Below, piece by piece: positions 47,918 through 49,517 of a stretch of 50,398 bases of DNA. The translations under genes and the position numbers were made by a program. Below the pieces are notes generated by a model. The model was not told the origin of the DNA. It ran no database searches and saw only the letters and a list, made by a program, of their open reading frames with translations. The DNA is from Chlorobiota bacterium (GTDB lineage: Bacteria; Bacteroidota; Ignavibacteria; OLB7): the NCBI GenBank assembly GCA_016788565.1, contig JAEUSP010000008.1:1-50398 (forward strand), in the 5' to 3' direction. Position 1 is the first letter of the stretch. Each line of letters opens with the position of its first letter.

Positions 47918-47952
47918 CCACTGACCACTGACCACTGACCACTGACCACTGA
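47918..47952 (+). repeat. Heptanucleotide tandem repeat, CCACTGA family (5 units)
   Basis: Five perfect CCACTGA units followed by a truncated CCACC. Confidence 0.93.
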
Positions 47953-47973
47953 CCACCACCTGCCCTGAGCTTC

Positions 47974-48013
47974 TTAACATTGCCGTAACACTGCCATCAC
48001 ACCGCCATAACAT
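47974..48013 (+). promoter_or_regulatory. Candidate double PHO box (four direct repeats, 11-bp period)
   Basis: TTAACAT, GTAACAC, ATCACAC and ATAACAT start at 47974, 47985, 47996 and 48007, exactly 11 bp apart, with GCC-containing 4-nt spacers (TGCC, TGCC, CGCC). Direct 7-bp repeats with 4-bp spacers are the hallmark of PhoB/PhoP/SphR-type binding sites. The genes downstream are a phosphate-type porin and PstS. Confidence 0.7.
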
Positions 48014-48021
48014 CCCGCCAA

Positions 48022-48029
48022 TAATTTTG
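48022..48029 (+). promoter_or_regulatory. TAnnTTTG promoter element of the phosphate porin gene
   Basis: TAATTTTG matches TAnnTTTG. It begins 8 nt after the last repeat of the candidate PHO box, so the regulator would sit where the -33 element normally is. No separate TTG box is seen at the usual distance. Confidence 0.65.
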
Positions 48030-48182
48030 CGCTTGCTGAAGATGCCGAGCGGGCAAACGGTGGTAACGGCCGATGCCATCCAAATGAGCACTTGAGCTGA
48101 ACAGTCCAACGGAACAGCAGCCAACGCACGATTGCTGCAATCGCACTTCCAGCAATTCCCGACACAAACCCAAAACCAAAGC

Positions 48183-49517
48183 ATGGGAACACCGATACGT
48201 AAATTTTTAACGATAACGACGCTTGCCGCACTTAGCCTTGGTGTGGCACACGCGCAGCAAGATTCAACAGAACCAGCATCACCAGAAGAATCAGGCGGGG
48301 GGGAGATTGAGACGATAAAGGAGCGGATGGACGTTGCCGAAGGGACGCTGGAAAAACTAAGCCAACTGAAAATTTCCGGCTACATCCAGGCCGAGTGGCA
48401 GCATTTTGACCAAGCCACCAACCCGCAAGGGCGCGCACTGTACAGCGACGCGCGCCGCAATGCTTTTGTGATACGCCGTGGCCGCATCAAATTTCAGCAT
48501 CGTTCCCAATGGCTAACTGCCGTTTTGTATCCCGACATCAGCGAGCGCGGGGTTACGCTGAAGGAAGCCTACGTGGATTTTGGATTGCTTCCCGATAACG
48601 AATTCAACATCACCGTCGGCTCGTTCAATCGCCCTAATTACGAAGTCGAGGTTTCCTCCAGCAACCGCGAATCCACCGAACGCGCACAAGTCACCCGTGC
48701 GTTCTACCCGGAAGAGCGTGATTTGGGATTGATGTTCACCTACTACCCCACGCTTGCCGAATCGTTCACACCAAAACTCCAGGTTGGATTTTTTAATGGT
48801 GGCGGGGCGATTGCAGCATCGGAGGTGGACCCCTACAAGGATTTGATTGCCCGCGTAACAATGCCGCTTCCGTTGGGCAATGAATCCCCAGTTCAGATTG
48901 ATCTTGGAGCCACCTTCTATCACGGCGGAATCCCCGTGACGACCGACTCGTTGCTGGAAACCGTGGATGGCAAAACCAAGCTGGTGTTCAACGATGCCAC
49001 CGGCGATTTGCGCGGCTGGGGAAACCGGAAAAACTTCAACGTGGAAGGGCAAATTTTCCTTGATCTGCTCCCGATTGGCGGAACGATTATCAAAGGAGAA
49101 ATAATGACCGGAAGCCGACCAACCGCCGGAACCGCCGCAACCTCAGCCTCGGTAGGAATCACCAAAGGAAGCGACGGGAAGGACAGCATCCGAATCGTTC
49201 CGGGAAGCGCAGCAAAGCCGGTGCAAGTCCGCAATCAAATGGGCTACTACGGCTACTTCATCCAGAATTTCGGCAGCGATGCACAGCTTGCGCTGAAGTA
49301 CGATTACTTCGACCGCAACACCGATATGGAGGGGTCGCACGTTGCTTCGTCGGGGGATATGGCTGTGGGGGTGCTTGGGTTTGGCGGAAGCGTTTTTGTG
49401 GGGAACGCCCGCATCACCCTGTGGCACGAAATCCCCACCACCGAAAAAAATTCCTTCGGTGGCCTGGACGACTTGAAGGATAACAAAACCACCGTCCGAT
49501 TCCAGTACAAGTTCTAA
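48183..49517 (+). CDS. Phosphate-selective porin O/P family protein
   Basis: The start is placed at the ATG at 48183 (MGTPIRKFLTITTLAALSLGVAHAQ, 444 aa), which gives a clean signal peptide; the frame opens earlier at 48132. After cleavage there is a short coiled-coil-like segment (IETIKERMDVAEGTLEKL), as in OprP/OprO-type trimeric porins. The barrel begins with ISGYIQAEWQHF, then FVIRRGRIKFQ, LKEAYVDFGLLPDNEFNITVGSFNRPNYEVE, YYGYFIQNFGSDAQLALKYDYFDRN, and ends in TTVRFQYKF with terminal Phe. It is predicted to take up phosphate or polyphosphate through the outer membrane. The pstS-like gene follows after 43 bp, and a candidate PHO box precedes the pair. Confidence 0.9.
   Translation: MGTPIRKFLTITTLAALSLGVAHAQQDSTEPASPEESGGGEIETIKERMDVAEGTLEKLSQLKISGYIQAEWQHFDQATNPQGRALYSDARRNAFVIRRGRIKFQHRSQWLTAVLYPDISERGVTLKEAYVDFGLLPDNEFNITVGSFNRPNYEVEVSSSNRESTERAQVTRAFYPEERDLGLMFTYYPTLAESFTPKLQVGFFNGGGAIAASEVDPYKDLIARVTMPLPLGNESPVQIDLGATFYHGGIPVTTDSLLETVDGKTKLVFNDATGDLRGWGNRKNFNVEGQIFLDLLPIGGTIIKGEIMTGSRPTAGTAATSASVGITKGSDGKDSIRIVPGSAAKPVQVRNQMGYYGYFIQNFGSDAQLALKYDYFDRNTDMEGSHVASSGDMAVGVLGFGGSVFVGNARITLWHEIPTTEKNSFGGLDDLKDNKTTVRFQYKF

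Follow-up and report, generated by a model that had tools for sequence, protein, structure and literature searches.

A putative four-unit PHO box in fixed register with the TAnnTTTG promoter element upstream of a porin-pstS locus of the Bacteroidota

INTRODUCTION

In Escherichia coli, the PHO box takes the place of the -35 element; at phoA of strain MG1655, CTGTCATAAAG TTGTCAC is followed by 10 nt and then by the -10 hexamer TATAGT. The PhoP box of Bacillus subtilis has the core TT(A/C/T)ACA, and its core and spacing come very close to those of the repeat units described here, but it belongs to a Gram-positive sigma-A promoter and is not known to have outer-membrane porin targets. PhoB-type proteins bind 11-bp repeats head-to-tail, and the E. 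coli box (phoA, pstS) is made of such direct repeats, each with 7 conserved plus 4 further positions and a CTGTCAT core (PMC4415409). The cyanobacterial SphR box (CTTAACCT repeats) is likewise a tandem array with an 11-bp period (8 + 3), at least three units and a TTAAC core (PMC1906773). Within the same phylum as our locus, the DAP-seq motif of the OmpR-family regulator PhoP from Riemerella anatipestifer has the core TTTAACA; that study reports hundreds of sites, which it connects with oxygen stress and virulence and not with phosphate, and in its accessible part no 11-bp array or promoter register was found (PMC9603813).

The phosphate response of the Bacteroidota (PhoBR, TonB/Sus-type uptake, PafA, PhoX) has already been studied in gut and soil. 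PhoB of Bacteroides fragilis binds its pst promoter in vitro (EMSA), with no site defined in the accessible part of the report (PMC3547664), and the phosphate-starvation set of Flavobacterium johnsoniae includes porin, PitA, phosphoesterase, glycosyltransferase, MauG-like and TonB-receptor genes, OprP itself not being induced (PMC8115612). In a flavobacterium with mapped starts, the promoter element TAnnTTTG lies at -12 to -5 (PMC9723704). In the openly searchable literature, to which the search was confined, we found no sequence-level definition of a Bacteroidota PHO box or of its TAnnTTTG register, which does not amount to proof of novelty.

RESULTS AND DISCUSSION

A four-unit array upstream of a porin gene and pstS

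The window, i.e. the whole stretch of DNA that was analysed (50,398 nt of contig JAEUSP010000008.1 from a Chlorobiota bacterium), carries the following features, some of which recur in the same-family relatives L016, L017 and L018:

47974-47980, + strand: putative PHO-box unit 1, TTAACAT, about -60 to -54, conserved in L016, L017 and L018
47985-47991, + strand: putative PHO-box unit 2, GTAACAC, about -49 to -43, conserved in relatives
47996-48002, + strand: putative PHO-box unit 3, ATCACAC, covering the expected -33 region (about -38 to -32), conserved in relatives
48007-48013, + strand: putative PHO-box unit 4, ATAACAT, about -27 to -21, conserved in relatives
48014-48021, + strand: 8-nt spacer CCCGCCAA between unit 4 and the -7 element, fixed at 8, 19 or 30 nt in relatives
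48022-48029, + strand: putative Bacteroidota sigma-A -7 element TAATTTTG (TAnnTTTG; PMC9723704 gives the consensus and its placement at -12 to -5)
48034, + strand: transcription start predicted from the -7 geometry
48183-49517, + strand: ORF for a phosphate-type outer-membrane porin of 444 aa
49561-50391, + strand: gene for a PstS-type periplasmic phosphate-binding protein (PF12849, E=3e-47)

Read directly, the full string at 47974-48029 is TTAACAT-TGCC-GTAACAC-TGCC-ATCACAC-CGCC-ATAACAT-CCCGCCAA-TAATTTTG. The description given by the first-pass annotation, four 7-mers 11 bp apart with 4-nt spacers and TAnnTTTG 8 nt further on, is thus exact: the units span 47974-48013 with a period of exactly 11 bp, and the spacers are TGCC, TGCC and CGCC in this order. 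Two or more direct repeats of about 7 conserved bp with an 11-bp period, as expected of a PHO box, are therefore present. Because TAnnTTTG occupies -12 to -5 in the flavobacterium (PMC9723704), the start is predicted near 48034, close to the 48036 or so given by the first-pass annotation. Unit 3 would then lie at about -38 to -32 and unit 4 at about -27 to -21. A tandem ACCACTG array of about five copies lies at 47918-47957 of the window, its end ~15-20 bp upstream of the putative PHO box; the same-genus relative L016 is without it.

Compared with E. coli phoA, where 10 nt lead to the -10 hexamer, 8 nt lead to TAnnTTTG here, and arrays of this type often have four units. The earlier statement that the core differs from the enterobacterial CTGTCAT holds (TAACA here), with the refinement that the core is TTAACA-like and resembles cyanobacterial and Gram-positive boxes, although the cyanobacterial box belongs to another phylum and promoter type and differs in the last positions. 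As a PHO box, the array adds a new lineage to a known element that has different cores in different lineages, and its promoter geometry is well defined.

The same annotation had assigned the genes behind the array to an O/P-type porin and PstS. PstS matches its family clearly (see above), and the porin, which has no Pfam match of its own, is 32% identical to L129, a protein whose match to PF07396 (Porin_O_P) narrowly exceeds the cut-off. After pstS the contig has 7 more bases; in L016 the operon continues past pstS with ORFs that read, by eye, as pstC, pstA, pstB and phoU. Like a PHO box, arrays of this kind precede phosphate-acquisition genes: porin-pstS here, and PstS, PstC, PHO4, porins and phosphoesterases elsewhere. 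An Rfam search of the leader for an RNA element gave no match.

Rarity and conservation of the array

Within the window, three TNACAY units at 11-bp spacing (at most one mismatch) were matched twice, both times within the array, while shuffles expect 0.01 matches; the four-unit pattern has a single match with 0 mismatches across the whole 4.58-Mb genome. The self-similarity of the array taken alone is only modestly unusual: its best frame starts one base upstream (47973) and scores 34 versus a maximum of 31 in 200 simulated 50-kb windows, and the frame chosen by the first-pass annotation (47974) scores 30, a value reached by 9 of the 200. This modest value, together with the simple tandem repeat about 15-55 bp upstream, might be taken to mean that the array arose by chance or is a low-complexity tandem repeat without function, like the nearby ACCACTG array. 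However, a phylum-wide conservation with fixed phase, described in the following, already refutes such an origin and leaves it next to no probability; it is conservation, rather than self-similarity, that is decisive here.

Alignment of the upstream regions of orthologous porins, which had been proposed as a check, bears the proposal out. The relatives L016, L017 and L018 retain the four units and TAnnTTTG with identical spacing, their porins being 88% (L016) and 50-56% (L017 and L018) identical to that of the window, and in the alignment of the window with L016 the flanks have diverged around the retained array and TAnnTTTG. The wider porin set consisted of 64 loci plus the window (65 regions), chosen by protein similarity and mostly from Bacteroidota, Ignavibacteria and Kapaibacterium records. 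The best three-unit array was sought in the 400 bp upstream of each porin, and control windows were kept clear of the site. Perfect three-unit arrays with period 11 occur in 22 of the 65 porin upstream regions versus 1 of 650 control windows, while none of the 65 regions has a perfect three-unit array with a period of 8-10 or 12-16. In all 38 cases an exact TAnnTTTG behind the array lies 9, 20 or 31 nt after the core, i.e. 8, 19 or 30 nt after the 7-mer. A nominal p close to 1e-40 is not a true probability here, since these are related loci, some of them almost the same in sequence. The distance from box to promoter is thus 8 nt plus whole steps of 11 bp (8 + 11n nt), and the fixed distance upstream of a -10/-7 element that characterizes PHO boxes is found for 38/38 exact TAnnTTTG elements of the porin set and for 19/24 sites of a blind scan (see below).

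The units lie inside the promoter, across the expected -33 region, and OmpR-family proteins can repress, so that the array might instead repress the operon or have a dual role that turns it off. We regard this as very unlikely: the 8 + 11n register to the -7 element, with the array well upstream (19 or 30 nt) in many relatives, fits activation, and F. johnsoniae induces homologous gene families when phosphate is low (PMC8115612).

In Bacteroidales porin loci (e.g. L051, L038 and L032), the two distal units, TTAACAATTATTTAACAT, show almost no variation, spacer included, and loci of this type have lost the unit adjoining TAnnTTTG, the array lying one helical turn further upstream. L016 and L060 are deposited as Armatimonadetes and Alphaproteobacteria, respectively; yet both have Bacteroidota-type porins and promoters and are probably mislabelled bins.

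Genome scans within the phylum

We searched 198 genomes of the phylum blindly for three units followed, after a free gap of 6-36 nt, by TAnnTTTG, and obtained 27 matches versus 3 for the reversed pattern. The 27 matches reduce to 24 sites, 19 of which have a gap of 9, 20 or 31 and hence are in register. The next gene of the in-register sites encodes Porin_O_P (five, one by near identity), PstS (two), PstC, a PHO4 phosphate transporter (PitA), a calcineurin-like metallophosphoesterase (one) or a TonB receptor with a CarboxypepD_reg domain (five); the four others are an ABC-F ATPase, two genes without a Pfam match and one that is, by eye, asparagine-synthetase-like. Five sites are out of register. 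One of them, with gap 10, lies ahead of a glycosyltransferase-like gene; judged by eye, this gene is similar to one that follows a box in the sister-genus genome G001 (L081). In the family to which the window belongs, a phytase-like gene (PF13449) has a site upstream in both G001 and G002, as has a phosphoesterase gene (PF04185) in G001. The gene families behind the sites match the phosphate-induced set of F. johnsoniae (PMC8115612).

The comparative scan for further Pho genes was positive: matches across the phylum and in the sister genus precede pst, porin, phosphatase/phytase and other Pho-type genes. One refuting condition of the first-pass annotation, the lack of other Pho-related matches in the genome, does hold in part: scans of the window's own genome with the four-unit, three-unit and two-unit-plus-promoter patterns revealed no second convincing site, and with the last of these control matches outnumber real ones. 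One convincing site in the window's genome thus compares with several in G001; phytase-like genes are absent from the window's genus.

Further sites were noticed along the way. A perfect three-unit array with TACTTTTG lies ahead of a MauG/cytochrome c peroxidase gene fragment (PF03150) in a genome without this porin (L103, G003:C102:16752-16795); a MauG-like gene is phosphate-induced in F. johnsoniae. PHO-box-like repeats are also found upstream of a gene for a molybdate-type periplasmic binding protein (PF13531; L096, G001:C26:180242).

The candidate regulator

Five OmpR-type regulators are encoded in the window's genome. The best NCBIfam matches of one of them, L002, are two PhoB models (250.9 and 226.8 bits, both just missing the curated cut-offs of 270 and 296), and its gene adjoins that of a PhoR/PnpS-like kinase. 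At what we take to be the DNA-contact positions of the PhoB-DNA structure, L002 keeps R193, T194, D196, H198, R203 and T217 of E. coli PhoB and carries R200S, R201K and R219K, i.e. 6 of the 9 listed positions are identical and two more are R to K changes; the other four regulators depart more. Hence L002, with conserved DNA-contact residues but scores below the PhoB model cut-offs, reads as the cognate regulator and as the single clear PhoB of this genome. No PHO box was seen by eye upstream of the genome's own phoB. In G159, phoB and phoR are divergent from box-porin-pstS-pstC, with the box between them. A full-length PhoB-like gene is present near the porin, within the retrieved stretch, in 15 loci of the porin set, and 6 of the 10 such genes scanned pass the NCBIfam PhoB cut-off; in the 198-genome sample no PhoB passes the Bacteroides PhoB cut-off. 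Whether PhoB and box co-occur in these 198 genomes tells nothing, as almost all of them encode PhoB-like proteins.

With five OmpR-type regulators at hand, the array could be bound by another family member, e.g. a copper/heavy-metal or OmpR-like response regulator. Indeed, TolC-like genes of G001 and G002 follow TTAATCC triple repeats with the same TAnnTTTG spacing. Another OmpR-family regulon (L111, L113) apparently combines the geometry with a different core, so that the geometry by itself is no proof of PhoB. Nevertheless, a different regulator seems unlikely: sites with the TAACA core go with pst, porin and phosphatase genes, the divergent genes next to the box in G159 are phoBR, and only L002 among the five keeps most of the PhoB contact positions used.

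Because of the conserved repeats, the 11-bp register, the Pho-type target genes, the phoBR neighbour and the one clear PhoB, we consider it highly probable that the array is a four-unit PHO box through which PhoB activates the sigma-A (TAnnTTTG) promoter of porin-pstS(-pstCAB-phoU), and the array is very probably a docking site of PhoB. The original proposal, a double PHO box joined to a TAnnTTTG promoter for an OmpR-family phosphate regulator, is supported in this form by conservation, register and Pho-type targets. Under phosphate starvation, the kinase PhoR would phosphorylate PhoB, which would then occupy the direct repeats head-to-tail, probably with two dimers side by side on the same face of the helix. 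PhoB would thereby cover the -33 region of a sigma-A promoter that is weak, TAnnTTTG being its one good element, and would recruit RNA polymerase, presumably by direct contact, for transcription of porin-pstS(-pstCAB-phoU). On this reading, the porin-pstS promoter would respond to phosphate.

A shared promoter geometry with a second core

The array layout recurs across the phylum and offers a ready tag for phosphate-regulated genes; motif and promoter register are specific enough for a pattern-based prediction of the Pho regulon in uncultured Bacteroidota, and the register provides a simple quantitative test of activator phasing with the unusual Bacteroidota RNA polymerase. The TTAATCC-type triple repeats mentioned above (L113, G001:C17:14750; L111, G002:C31:20248) also have 11-bp spacing and the same distance to TAnnTTTG, and precede a TolC-like outer-membrane efflux gene (PF02321); they apparently mark a further OmpR-family regulon that shares this promoter geometry. 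There may be a phylum-wide rule, for which we see an even chance, that OmpR-family activators sit on sigma-A promoters at strictly 8 + 11n nt from TAnnTTTG, PhoB through TTAACA units and another activator, probably a metal-responsive one, through TTAATCC units. If it is true, the array could be moved upstream by whole helical turns with activation kept.

A candidate second site in the window's own genome (L013, G000:C111:10422-10460) was set aside, as its TAAGTTTG lies 20 nt and not 19 nt downstream and its core is another one. It consists of four TGACA-type repeats at 11-bp spacing upstream of a lipoprotein-like ORF of ~60 aa, and is possibly the site of another regulator.
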